A DNA stretch of 62,820 nucleotides from Verrucomicrobiota bacterium (GTDB lineage: Bacteria > Verrucomicrobiota > Verrucomicrobiia > Opitutales > Puniceicoccaceae), in the NCBI GenBank assembly GCA_038744685.1, contig JBCDMB010000019.1:1-62820 (forward strand), written 5' to 3'. This document shows positions 17,606 through 23,569 of the stretch, piece by piece. The notes beneath the pieces are model-generated. The model was given only the letters and a program-made list of their open reading frames with translations. It had not been told where the DNA came from and did no database searches. The translations under genes and the position numbers were made by a program. Numbering within the stretch: the stretch's first letter is position 1; every line of letters begins with the position of its first letter.

Positions 17606-19552
17606 TTACTTCTCTTTCTTGTCTTCTTCTTCGACCACTTCGAAATCTGCGTCGACCACATCTTCCTTTCCGTCGGAGGAAGGTTGACCTTCAGGTGTCG
17701 GTTGACCCTCTGGCGGAGGCGCTCCCTCCGCGCCTGCTGCCTGGCTGTAGATATCCTGTCCGACCTGAGCAAGAATACCGGTAATTTTCTCCTTAGCTGA
17801 TCCTAGCTCCTCTACGGAAGCGGCTTGGTTTTCGAGCACCTTCCGGCCTTCTGCAACAGCGAGTTCAATTGCACTCTTTTTGTCTTCCGGGAGCTTGTCT
17901 CCCAGCTCGGATACCTGCTTTTCGGCCTGGTAGCAGAGGTTGTCCAGCTCATTGCGAGTCTCCACAGCCTCTTTCCGCTGCTTGTCTTCATCCGCATGAA
18001 GCTCAGCCTCCTTTTTGAGGCGTTCTATCTCGTCTTTGTCCAAGCCGGAGGATCCGGAGATTGTGATCTTTTGGTCTTTGCCGGTTCCCTGGTCTTTAGC
18101 AGTGACATGCAAAATTCCGTTCGCATCGATGTCGAAGATCACCTCAATCTGAGGAACTCCCCTAGGCGCTGTTGGGATACCTTCCAGTCGGAAATTTCCC
18201 AGCATCTTGTTGTCGTTTGCCATCGGGCGTTCTCCCTGCAGCACCTTAACATCCACAGCCGTCTGATTGTCGGCGTATGTCGAGAAAACCTGGCTCTTCT
18301 TGGTCGGAATGGTCGTATTCCGCTCGATCATTGCAGTAGAAACGCCGCCAGCTGTTTCGATTCCCAAGGTAAGCGGAGTCACGTCCAACAGAAGAACGTC
18401 CCGCATGTCTCCCTGAAGAACGGCTCCTTGGATAGCTGCGCCAATCGCAACTACTTCATCGGGATTGACCCCCTTATGAGGTTCCTTCCCTGCAAGTTCC
18501 CGAGCGATCTCGATCACCTTAGGGTTACGAGTCATTCCACCCACCAAAACGAGGTCATTGACTTCGGAAGAACTCAAGCCCGCATCCTTCATGCACGACT
18601 CAAAAGGACCCTTGATTCTCTGAAACAAAGAATCCGTAATCTGCTCCAGCTTGGAGCGACTGAGAGTAACATTCAAATGCTTCGGACCCGAAGCGTCTGC
18701 AGTGATAAAAGGTAGGTTGATGTCGGTCGATTGCGTTGAGGAGAGGGCGATTTTCGCCTTTTCAGCCTCTTCCTTCAGACGCTGCTTGGCCATTGGATCG
18801 CCAAGGAGGTCGATACCGTTTTCCTTTTTAAACTCGTCAGCCAACCACTCGATTAACGCAGTGTCCCAGTTGTCACCACCAAGATGAGTGTCGCCGTTTG
18901 TGGCCTTTACCTCGAAGACGCCGTCACCAATCTCAAGGGCAGAGACATCAAACGTTCCACCTCCGAGGTCAAAAACAGAGATCGTGTGGTCATTCTTTTT
19001 ATCGAGCCCGTAGGCAAGCGAGGCTGCCGTCGGCTCGTTGATGATCCGCTCAACCTCAAGGCCAGCAATCGTACCTGCGTCTTTGGTAGCCTGCCGCTGG
19101 GCATCGTTGAAGTAAGCTGGGACAGTCACAACTGCCTTTGTGACAGTCTCCCCGAGGTAAGCTTCTGCATCTGCCTTCAGCTTCGCCAGGATCATCGCGG
19201 AGATCTGCTCCGGGGAGAAATCCTCTTCCTTGTCCCCTACCTTGCAGCGGATGTAGGCATCGCCATTCTTTCCCTCGACCACTGTGTAAGGGAGGCTTTT
19301 CGACTCTTCCTCGACCTCAGTAAACTTTCGCCCAATAAGTCTTTTAGCGGAGAAAATGGTGTTTTGGGGATTGGTGATTGCCTGTCTTTTCGCTGCCTGA
19401 CCCACCAAACGTTCGCCTGTCTTGGAGAAAGCCACTACCGATGGTGTAGTGCGGGCACCCTCAGCGTTTTCAATCACTTTGGGCTCGCCGCCTTCCATGA
19501 TCGCTACGCAGGAATTGGTGGTTCCCAAGTCAATACCGATAATTTTGCTCAT
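17606..19552 (-). CDS. dnaK: Hsp70 chaperone DnaK
   Basis: A 648-residue Hsp70. The ATPase domain opens with [19 protein letters not shown] and contains [12 protein letters not shown]. The linker and substrate-binding domain follow ([15 protein letters not shown], then a beta-sandwich and helical lid). The C-terminal tail is Gly/Pro/Glu-rich and ends in acidic [11 protein letters not shown], like other DnaK tails. dnaJ and grpE are not adjacent; groES-groEL follow instead on the same strand. Upstream there are two interleaved inverted repeats (19684-19729) that may be control sites. Confidence 0.97.
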
Positions 19553-19683
19553 GCACCCAGGTTTGCTAGAATGGTGCCAACCGAAAAGATTTATCTTAAG
19601 TTACTTTCTTTCAATAGCTTACAGTATATTTCAATGAATCTTTCAGCCCTTTAAGGCCGGATTTAGAGTCACAATATCCCACC

Positions 19684-19729
19684 TGTGTCACACTTGAGTG
19701 GCAGTTGTGACACAAGTCTTAGTGCCACT
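19684..19729. promoter_or_regulatory. Interleaved inverted repeats upstream of dnaK
   Basis: Arm A TGTGTCACA (19684-19692) is the exact reverse complement of A' TGTGACACA (19706-19714). Arm B AGTGGCA (19697-19703) reads as the reverse complement of B' TGCCACT (19723-19729), and B' lies within the palindrome AGTGCCACT (19721-19729). The order A-B-A'-B' allows either two overlapping protein sites or a pseudoknot in RNA. The element is about 130 bases before the dnaK start and about 90 bases past the stop of the upstream paralogue gene. Its function is inferred only from position. Confidence 0.45.
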
Positions 19730-19821: not shown

Positions 19822-21204
19822 TTACTGCATGGCCTCGGAATCAATTGCTCCCAAGCCCTTCAGAATCCGATACTCTCCGTTGAAATAATCCACGAAATCG
19901 TCGGCGGCTCTGTCTTCGTCTCTCGTCCAATCTTCGTCTGCACCTTTAAATACAATGGCGTTCAAGACCGGACGCTCATCAGAGTTTTGGTCATATTCGA
20001 GACGCAATAGAGTCTCGAACACCTGATCAATTTCCCTCTCGGAATATTCAGAAAATACATGATAGTCGATCCGTCGTATCAGGGGAACGAAGTCATCGTC
20101 ATCTTTCTCAAGCTGTTCCTCAATGTCTTTCCTCAGTTGGTCACTTTCCCCCCAGGTGTAAATGCGTGGCGGTAAACCGTTTACTCGGCGCTGTTCCGTC
20201 TCGTTCCTTTTGAAATCATCGATTTTTCGCTGAATTTTCGGCTCATATGGATTTCGTTTTGCGGTGTATTCAGCCTCTGAGTCAAAACCCGCTCTTTTCA
20301 GCGCATTCCTGAACTGTTCCTCTGTATTTTCGAGGTCCTCCGGGCTACGGTAGGTTGATTTTTCCATCCCCGGTAAGTTGTCGGTGAATAGGTACACCGC
20401 ATCAGGTCTCTGTTCTAGAATACCCATTACCGCCAGATAGACATCGTTTTGTGTCATCCACGGTGTCTCTACAAGATTCTGCCCAAATTCTGAGTTCCAT
20501 GATTTCGGGATGAAGTTTTTGTTTCGCACTCCGATTTGGTTCGGTCCGCTATTTACGCCCTTTAGCCACCTGGCGGAGGACTCCTTGTTGGATGTGCTAG
20601 CTGCGACCAAAGAGGGCCTCCAAAGTTCAAGTTGTCCTCTTTGGAACAACATGATGTTGAAAAGCACCCCCGAGGGCAGATCCTCAATCAAGTTGGTGAG
20701 ATCCTCTTTAATCACGTTGTAGGTTAGGAGCCCACCTTTGGAATCTTGCATCAGGTTCCGATAGACATCGATTACGAAGAGAAATTTCTCTCCCTTTGCC
20801 CGAATGTCGAAGAGACTGACAGACACCTCACCAAGGCCTAAACCACCCCCCATATCCCCGAGCCGTTCATCGCCAAACCGGCCGATTCCTCTGTTGGTGC
20901 TGATGTCCGGGACCTGAATGTCAACGTCGGGAACATCCATTTGGCTGATCTGACGTACCTGAAGTCTCTGCTTGGGTCGCTCAGACTGTTTCTGCTTTTC
21001 CTGCATACGAACCTTGAACTCCAGTTGGACCCTTTCGATTTTTTCTACTGGAGGTGGCTCGTCAAAAGATGGGTCATCCGGCAAAATCGCTTCGTAGACA
21101 GTCATCCCGCCGAAGATAAGAAGCGCAACCAAGTGGACCGCCAGAATTCCTGCCATAATCGACCAAAGGGCTTTGTTCGGACGTTTTTTCTTGGGGTGGT
21201 ACAT
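19822..21204 (-). CDS. TonB-like/vWA-like membrane-anchored protein, paralogue 2
   Basis: A 460-residue protein of unknown function and second copy of a tandem pair. The order of parts is: basic cytoplasmic start MYHPKKKRPNK; one transmembrane helix (about 12-33); a Pro-containing acidic stretch (DEPPPVEKIE); a Gln/Lys-rich helix (FKVRMQEKQKQSERPKQ) like the periplasmic part of TonB/TolA; a Gly-rich linker (GGGLGLG); then an alpha/beta domain starting KFLFVIDVYRNLM that resembles a von Willebrand A domain. The metal-site DxSxS is absent (DVYRN). The C-terminus has long charged helices and ends ILKGLGAIDSEAMQ. It is probably anchored in the inner membrane and faces the periplasm. No ExbB/ExbD genes are in the window. 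Confidence 0.7.
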   Translation of the reverse strand: MYHPKKKRPNKALWSIMAGILAVHLVALLIFGGMTVYEAILPDDPSFDEPPPVEKIERVQLEFKVRMQEKQKQSERPKQRLQVRQISQMDVPDVDIQVPDISTNRGIGRFGDERLGDMGGGLGLGEVSVSLFDIRAKGEKFLFVIDVYRNLMQDSKGGLLTYNVIKEDLTNLIEDLPSGVLFNIMLFQRGQLELWRPSLVAASTSNKESSARWLKGVNSGPNQIGVRNKNFIPKSWNSEFGQNLVETPWMTQNDVYLAVMGILEQRPDAVYLFTDNLPGMEKSTYRSPEDLENTEEQFRNALKRAGFDSEAEYTAKRNPYEPKIQRKIDDFKRNETEQRRVNGLPPRIYTWGESDQLRKDIEEQLEKDDDDFVPLIRRIDYHVFSEYSEREIDQVFETLLRLEYDQNSDERPVLNAIVFKGADEDWTRDEDRAADDFVDYFNGEYRILKGLGAIDSEAMQ

Positions 21205-21395
21205 CGTCTAGCGTCTCACATTTCGATAGCGAGAAAACGGGTTTAATCAAGCTTCAGTTCGACCCAACAAGTCTATCTTAAGACAGATATCCTCTGAATC
21301 AAAGCCCAATCCCAAAGGCCTCGCGAGAGCCATTTGGAAAACTCCCAGCGGACTACTAAACCAATGAGCGGAGTGGGACGAACGGGCCCCTTATT

Positions 21396-22793
21396 TTACC
21401 GGACCGCGTCGGAGTCGATTGCTCCCAAACCCTTTAGGATTCGATAATTCCCGCCAAAAGTATCCACAAAGTCATCGATCACGTTTTCTTCCTCTTTCGT
21501 CACCTCTTCGTCCTTACCACGGAAAATGATCGCGTTGAACTGGGGTCTCTCGTCTCCTGACTGGTCGAATTGGAGTCGCTGGTTCTGCTCTATCCAGTCT
21601 TCAATCTCTCTTGCAGGGATCGGCTGATACTCTTGCAGACCGCGGACGTGTGGCACATATCCCTCCAATTCATCTTCGACCTCTTCCTCCATCTGTCGCC
21701 GAAGCTGAAAAAGCTCTGACATTGAATACACACGCGGAGGCACTCCCTTTCTCGCCCTTTGCTGGTTTTCCCTCTGCTGGAAAGCTCTAACCTTCTCATC
21801 TCTTTTCCCGATCACTACACTTCGAGCCCGTTGGTATTCTTCGATACTCTCCAAATCAGTAGCATCTTCGATGCGATCCAAGTATTCTTCCCGGGCCTTT
21901 TTCAAACCCTCGGAATCATGGGTGATTCGTTCCTCGACATTCTCAAAATCGGTAAGATGGTCAGAAAGATAAAAGATAGCATCCGGCTTCTGCTCAAATC
22001 CAGCAACTGCGCTCAGGAGCCAGACATTTCGCAACCCCGCACTCTGGTTCGTGCGGGATAGGAGACGCTGCGCAACAGGCTGTTGAAACGCCTGCGGCCG
22101 GAAGTTCGAGCGCCGGATTCCAGTGCTGTTAGCGTTTAGATTTACCGGTGCCAGCCAGTTTGCGAAAAGTTTCTTATTTTCTGCGCTAGCGGGAACGAGG
22201 TTGGGTCGGAACGTCTCCATGCGTTCTCGGTCGAATAAAATCATGTTGAACAAGACTCCAGACGGTAGTTCGTTTACGAGTCTGGTGATGTCCTCCTTGA
22301 TTACGTTGTAGGTGGGAATACCGCCTTTAGCGTCCTGGAGAAGCTCTGAACGCACGTCCACCACGAAGAGGAACTTTTCGCCCTTTGCCCGAATATCAAA
22401 AAGATCCACAGAAACGTCTCCCAGTCCAAGACCACCCCCCATTCCTCCAAAGTTTCCGTCTCCAAACCGTCCAATGCCTCGGCCATTGTTGATGTCCGGG
22501 ACTTGAATGTCCACGTCCGGAACTTCCATCTGGCTTATTTGCTGAACTTGTAGCTTCTGCTTGGGTCTTTGAGACTGCTTCTGCTTTTCCTGCATACGCA
22601 CCTTGAACTCAAGCTGCACACGCTCGATCTTCTCTAACGGAGGTGGATCGTCAAAAGAAGCGTCATCCGGCATGAAAGCATCGTAAACCGTAAAACCCCC
22701 AAAGATAAGAAGGGCGACAATATGAATTGCCAAAATCCCAGACATGATGGACCAAAGGATTTTGTTGGGAGACTTTTTCTTGGGGTGGTACAT
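21396..22793 (-). CDS. TonB-like/vWA-like membrane-anchored protein, paralogue 1
   Basis: A 465-residue protein and first copy of the tandem pair, closely similar to the next gene along its whole length. It has the same start MYHPKKKSPNK, the same single membrane helix, the same Gln/Lys-rich TonB-like helix, the Gly-rich GGMGGGLGLG linker, the alpha/beta domain opening KFLFVVDVRSELL, and the same end ILKGLGAIDSDAVR. The middle of the C-terminal half, including the coiled-coil-like region (REEYLDRIEDATDL...), has diverged most. ATG 22793 is chosen over an ATG at 22835 because the duplicate begins at the same residue. The vWA metal-site motif is degenerate here too (DVRSE). Function unknown. 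Confidence 0.7.
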   Translation of the reverse strand: MYHPKKKSPNKILWSIMSGILAIHIVALLIFGGFTVYDAFMPDDASFDDPPPLEKIERVQLEFKVRMQEKQKQSQRPKQKLQVQQISQMEVPDVDIQVPDINNGRGIGRFGDGNFGGMGGGLGLGDVSVDLFDIRAKGEKFLFVVDVRSELLQDAKGGIPTYNVIKEDITRLVNELPSGVLFNMILFDRERMETFRPNLVPASAENKKLFANWLAPVNLNANSTGIRRSNFRPQAFQQPVAQRLLSRTNQSAGLRNVWLLSAVAGFEQKPDAIFYLSDHLTDFENVEERITHDSEGLKKAREEYLDRIEDATDLESIEEYQRARSVVIGKRDEKVRAFQQRENQQRARKGVPPRVYSMSELFQLRRQMEEEVEDELEGYVPHVRGLQEYQPIPAREIEDWIEQNQRLQFDQSGDERPQFNAIIFRGKDEEVTKEEENVIDDFVDTFGGNYRILKGLGAIDSDAVR

Positions 22794-22831: not shown

Positions 22832-23569
22832 TCAATCAAGTTTCTCTTCTGCAAGGAGATCGCTCACCAAATCCGGGATCCCTATCGCGGCCGTCTTCAG
22901 CACTTTCTCGAAACCCAGCGGTAAGACGTCTGCACTCTCCTTCGGGCTGATCCAGACTTTCCTCGCCGCAGATTCCGCAAAGTCTATCAAAGAGGCAGCA
23001 GGATAAACTAGCAAAGAAGTGCCAACGACCATCAATACGTCGGCACCCCGAACGATAGGTTCCGCTACTTCCATCGCCGGAACCGATTCCCCAAACCAAA
23101 CGACATGTGGACGAAGTTGAGAACCCTTGTCACAGACATCACCCAGCCTGATTTCTTTACCGTGAAGCCGATAGAGAAGTCGATCGTCAACGGTGCTTCG
23201 CGCCACATCCAACTCCCCGTGAAGATGTAGGACAGATGATGACCCTGCCCGTTCATGGAGATCATCAACATTTTGAGTGATGACCGACACTTCGTAACCT
23301 TCTTCCAAACGCGCAAGAGCCAGATGCCCGTCGTTTGGCTCAGCCCTCATTAATTGTCGCCTCCTCTCGTTGTAAAAACGCAGAACCGCCTCGGGATTCC
23401 GTTGCCATGCTTCGGGCGTGGCTACGTCTTCGACTTTATGACCTTCCCACAACCCATCCGAGTCACGAAACGTCTTGAGTCCGCTTTCGGCACTCATTCC
23501 AGCACCAGACAAGACAACGACTGACTTGCGATCATCCACTGTGGACACCATGAACCCTGCGGTAGACAT
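22832..23569 (-). CDS. Sir2-family NAD-dependent deacylase lacking zinc cysteines
   Basis: A 245-residue sirtuin. It has the NAD-binding GAGMSAESG (22-30), TQNVDDLHERAG (99-109), catalytic H117 in HLHGEL, LRPHVVWFGE (152-161) and VVGTSLLVYPA. Family members remove acyl groups from lysines or, in some branches, ADP-ribosylate. The usual four zinc-binding cysteines between the catalytic His and LRPHVVWFGE are missing; only C146 remains in that region. The short insert there suggests a zinc-free fold. It sits 38 bases upstream of the paralogue pair on the same strand, so could be co-transcribed with it. A second possible start is Met7 (23551). Confidence 0.85.
   Translation of the reverse strand: MSTAGFMVSTVDDRKSVVVLSGAGMSAESGLKTFRDSDGLWEGHKVEDVATPEAWQRNPEAVLRFYNERRRQLMRAEPNDGHLALARLEEGYEVSVITQNVDDLHERAGSSSVLHLHGELDVARSTVDDRLLYRLHGKEIRLGDVCDKGSQLRPHVVWFGESVPAMEVAEPIVRGADVLMVVGTSLLVYPAASLIDFAESAARKVWISPKESADVLPLGFEKVLKTAAIGIPDLVSDLLAEEKLD

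Follow-up and report, generated by a model that had tools for sequence, protein, structure and literature searches.

Two adjacent genes in the window analysed here, a 62,820-nucleotide stretch of a Verrucomicrobiota genome, probably encode a pair of paralogues, P1 and P2, that transmit force across the envelope as transducers of the vWA class and would dock through His24 on ExbB. A motor operon on another contig of the same genome (C3) probably serves both proteins, and P1 appears to have been relocated from that operon to its present site. We put the probability of this reading at roughly 70%. It builds on what could be computed: the fold, the family, the operon of relatives, a gene missing from the genome's own operon, the orthology of the two genes, and a homogenised 5′ part.

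P1 (19822..21204, minus strand) encodes a 460-residue, vWA-tipped, TonB-like transducer orthologous to the motor-operon copy of sister species, and P2 (21396..22793, minus strand) a paralogue of 465 residues, counted from the ATG, orthologous to the dnaK-linked copy of those species. The two are 54% identical over their full length (E 3e-158). All the elements listed for them in a preceding sequence-only reading are present, namely one transmembrane (TM) helix, a Gln/Lys-rich stalk, a Gly-rich hinge and a domain opening KFLFV(I/V)DV. The TM helix spans residues 11-40, with putative motor-docking positions I20-H24-F31-T35; it lies at 21085..21174 in P1, as placed by an AF2 model and alignment, and at 22674..22763 in P2, where the limits come from alignment with P1. 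Following it, likewise on the minus strand, are the stalk (residues 46-100; 20905..21069 in P1, 22494..22658 in P2), the hinge (residues 101-127; 20824..20904 and 22413..22493), a vWA core of strands 1-4 (20359..20796 and 21939..22385), an inserted helical stretch that separates strand 4 from strand 5 (approximate limits 20050..20358 and 21624..21938) and the C-terminal vWA part, which in P1 runs helix, strand 5, helix, strand 6 (19825..20049 and 21399..21623).

The pair is flanked, as had been described, by dnaK (17606-19552; HSP70, E 5e-260) and a gene for a Sir2 protein (22832-23569; SIR2, E 1e-39), whose sequence holds only one Cys and which therefore lacks the zinc tetrad. Between P1 and dnaK, at 19681-19717, lies a 12-nt inverted repeat, ACCTGTGTCACA-N13-TGTGACACAAGT, which could be a dnaK operator; the 9-nt core pair of this repeat was not found in the searched loci of other genomes. 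Scans for sigma-70 promoters and for terminators gave signals not above chance.

Neither protein matched a Pfam or NCBIfam family above cut-off, a scan of the sequence collection with a single protein returned no match, and a search with an alignment of the genus matched only the sister Opitutia bacterium UBA4506. The AF2 model of full-length P1, built from a shallow alignment with the window proteins and related loci as input, was poor (pLDDT 47) and gave no more than a hint of vWA, its best Foldseek matches being vWA domains. A model of the P2 tip domain alone, from four aligned sequences, reached pLDDT 74 and pTM 0.61, and follows the vWA-like order of strands and helices with three long helices inserted before the final helix-strand-helix-strand. 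By VIA-align, this P2 tip matched the vWA domain of inter-alpha-trypsin inhibitor heavy chain H4 (Z 13.0, 152 residues, 2.7 Å), and the remaining top rows were also of vWA type. Profile comparison joined the P1/P2 family to shorter, often MIDAS-bearing relatives with a probability of 100 and an E of 1e-45, in an alignment spanning the TM helix to the C-terminus, and the profile of those shorter relatives matches PDB vWA chains directly (E 8e-11). Because the P2 model, the VIA-align matches, the profile comparison and the PDB matches concur, we conclude from sequence and modelling that the tip of P1 and P2 is a true vWA fold. A chance likeness was considered and rejected, given that profile, fold and MIDAS-bearing intermediates all agree. 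Family searches found no TonB_C domain in either protein.

The idea of a TonB-like stalk carrying a degenerate vWA-like domain is thus upheld by profile, structure-model and TM-motif evidence together. The long charged helices that were said to follow the domain do exist, but they make up an insertion of ~100 residues that comes after strand 4 and before strand 5, and the vWA fold itself ends in the conserved C-terminus. The vWA metal site DxSxS (MIDAS) is, as had been seen, lost from both proteins, reading DVYRN in P1 (residues 146-150, 20755..20769, minus strand) and DVRSE in P2 (residues 146-150, 22344..22358, minus strand); in strand 4, each still carries the Asp of the (S/T)D motif. Among operonic relatives, four have DxSGS intact and six have DVSxS intact, so that a loss in the P1/P2 branch is the simplest reading.

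The case for a motor comes from these relatives. With ExbB and ExbD genes placed by PF01618 and PF02472 searches, 15 of the 40 homologues in our first set were found to lie in an ExbB-ExbD-ExbD operon. Its full order, seen in 10 of 13 further loci, is a TPR protein (~1010 aa), the protein c4 (~380 aa, weak TPR), ExbB, ExbD, ExbD and, last, the vWA protein. The arrangement recurs within the taxonomic order and across Verrucomicrobiota, and the subfamily profile has matches in 38 of 144 sampled Verrucomicrobiota genomes. The TM helix tracks this linkage: His occupies the TonB/TolA position in all 15 motor-linked copies versus 8 of the 25 unlinked ones, most of the others having Gln (Fisher p 1e-5, relatedness ignored), and among the eight unlinked copies with His are P1, P2 and proteins closely related to motor-linked copies. 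Measured against the SHLS spacing, Ser-3X-His-6X-Leu-3X-Ser (PMC12905483), His24 of P1 and P2 is correctly placed relative to Phe31 and Thr35, with Leu changed to Phe, the last Ser to Thr, and the first Ser to Ile20, a replacement found throughout the genus. Residues 14-37 of the helix contain no Asp.

An alternative is that P1 and P2, once separated from the motor, ceased to work with it and are passive, motor-independent scaffold or adhesion proteins of the envelope, resembling the vWA paralogues with Gln in the TM helix, none of which was found beside a motor. The loss of the SHLS Ser, the lack of an adjacent motor gene and the Gln at the His position in related unlinked copies would all fit such a role. 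However, His24, Phe31 and Thr35 do not vary among the seven copies from the genus, two of which are still in motor operons, and the genome's own motor operon is intact without any other transducer attached to it. We therefore consider departure from the motor unlikely.

Several variations on this theme were noted among the other loci. Ten short vWA paralogues, one of them in the window's own genome (L053, C3:213272-214297), have Gln for the TM His, mostly an intact MIDAS and no motor alongside; several of the group adjoin an acyltransferase-like gene. One family, represented by four loci, exhibits the inverse split, in which TPR, c4 and vWA genes stand together and ExbB-ExbD-ExbD stands alone elsewhere, and here too Gln stands in the vWA protein where the docking His would be. 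Within vWA operons, open reading frames of 766-807 aa (L092:15002-17374, L093:428-2848 and L094:8091-10388) gave two-piece profile matches, and perhaps encode double-vWA transducers.

The motor operon of the window's own genome, a draft of 56 contigs, lies at C3:65436-71323 and comprises genes for a TPR protein, a TPR-like protein, ExbB, ExbD and ExbD; it is intact, but without the sixth gene. The pore Thr motifs of its ExbB are conserved and both ExbDs keep the TM Asp. Only 76 bp separate the second ExbD from a convergent gene, pyrophosphatase-like by eye, and the same convergent gene follows the vWA gene in the operons of sister species. A contig break as the cause of the missing gene was rejected, the empty site being inside a 267-kb contig. 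In two other genomes of the genus (G001 and G002) the orthologue of P1 is the operon's sixth gene and that of P2 adjoins dnaK; in the window's genome P1 is placed between P2 and dnaK. The tree of full-length proteins groups P1 with the operonic copies (support 100/99), and on this phylogeny we take P1 to be the missing sixth gene of the C3 operon, relocated beside P2. The same genome has a second cluster, of TPR, unknown and ExbB genes (C18:1-4936), which runs off the start of its contig, so that its transducer is out of view.

Trees of parts of the protein are less uniform. Residues 1-127 place P1 with P2 (93/96), while residues 128-465 place it with the operonic copies at a support of only 82/81. 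Residues common to P1 and P2 only fall at positions 22-135 in 13 of 18 cases, whereas all 13 residues diagnostic of operon versus dnaK copies fall at 145 or beyond (Fisher p 4e-5 for the positional split). Because the split trees disagree and the shared residues cluster, P1 looks chimeric or gene-converted, its first ~135 codons P2-like and the remainder of operonic type, with a junction that appears to lie close to where the vWA domain begins.

Conversion of this kind would account for part of the pattern, pointed out earlier, of conserved ends around a diverged middle. The pattern itself is confirmed by identity per segment: P1 and P2 share 78% in the TM/N-terminal segment, 89% in the stalk, 70% in the hinge and 74% in the first vWA part, then 32-36% across residues 185-285, 23% in the insertion and 34% across 351-410. 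The C-terminus, described as near-identical, is so only in its last ~20 residues, its identity across 55 residues being 62%. Even among orthologues, region 286-350 is only 39-48% identical; the middle evolves fast in all copies, and its divergence is thus not peculiar to this pair. The further suggestion that one surface had changed partner is accordingly weak, since the middle is a fast-evolving insertion and the contrast stems in part from the homogenised 5′ third of the two genes.

Given the operon in relatives and an own motor operon lacking its transducer, the earlier proposal of a force-transmitting pair with an ExbBD-like motor encoded elsewhere largely holds as the best inference; docking, energisation, motor sharing and a partner for the tip are likewise inferred. 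One TM helix would anchor each protein, with His24 docking on the side of the ExbB pentamer. Proton flow via ExbB/ExbD would move the periplasmic Gln/Lys rod, and the metal-free vWA tip with its helical insertion would grip a partner, perhaps the TPR protein encoded in the operon, either at the outer membrane or at the peptidoglycan. The single C3 motor operon (65.4-71.3 kb) probably serves both P1 and P2, and would pull or turn them, each tip having a separate target. P1 would be that operon's own transducer, moved beside the dnaK-linked duplicate P2, its first ~135 codons having been made P2-like.

A broader version of this proposal, which we offer tentatively, is that one ExbB-ExbD-ExbD motor drives exchangeable vWA transducers from other loci, with gene conversion keeping rods and docking helices alike while the tips, whose insertions evolve fast, diverge to pull different targets. 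In another family (L092), two tandem vWA transducers end a motor operon, which makes an arrangement of one motor with several tips plausible. Together with the tandem arrangement of P1 and P2, the same operon might instead be taken to indicate that the two form an obligate heteromer, in which a single motor would pull on both of their differing tips at the same time; but both types occupy distant loci in sister species, adjacency is therefore not required, and we doubt that the pairing is obligate.

The notion of an envelope sensor, in which the vWA tip detects a ligand and signals inward instead of transmitting force, fares worse. vWA domains are often ligand-binding, and with dnaK and a sirtuin gene as neighbours a role in stress is conceivable. 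Yet P1 and P2 have no cytoplasmic signalling domain and have lost the metal site, and the linkage to dnaK is a genus-level feature of P2 only, the ancestral context being the motor operon. The sensor reading is not supported, and we regard it as very improbable.

If P1 and P2 are force transducers, their locus offers a natural case, within a predicted, widespread class of proteins, in which transducer and motor have come apart. This separation, the apparent chimeric junction of P1 at the boundary of rod and tip, and the loss of the metal site within one operon family hint at the parts that bind the motor and those that bind the target, and point to candidate residues.

Among known systems, TonB and TolA resemble P1 and P2 in the N-terminal TM helix, where the spacing is of SHLS type and the His is kept, the periplasmic rod, the globular C-terminus and the ExbBD/TolQR-type motor, the last seen in relatives of P1 and P2; the C-terminal domain of P1 and P2, however, is vWA and not TonB_C. 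The genome encodes two separate TonB_C proteins (C12:21748 and C3:124432), each near other ExbB/ExbD genes, and the vWA/C3 motor is therefore an additional system. From canonical metal-binding vWA domains P1 and P2 differ in the lost DxSxS. TPH-vWA proteins (PMC12204202) are similarly membrane-tethered vWA proteins that occur in pairs, but in those the SHLS residues are missing and the transpore helix, accompanied by tolQ only, bears an Asp, whereas P1 and P2 carry His and no Asp within the TM helix. The closest counterpart is the class of vWA force transducers proposed in 2025 (Mol Biol Evol, section 8; PMC12204202), and the earlier statement that no named family has this layout does not stand. 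Members of that class combine a TM SHLS motif, present in 'many' but not all of them, with a linker and a vWA tip, and in PVC bacteria their genes often follow a TPR gene, a tolQ-like gene and two that are tolR-like; MIDAS is not mentioned for them (PMC12204202). P1 and P2 share the TM helix with its putative motor-docking His, the linker and the vWA tip, and differ in the motor-distant site, the lost MIDAS and SHLS Ser, and the helices inserted between strands 4 and 5. The gene order of the class is absent at the window locus, but is found for the P1 orthologues in G001 and G002 and phylum-wide. Judged by sequence, P1 and P2 are a variant of the predicted vWA force transducers, with no adjacent motor, no MIDAS and no SHLS Ser.
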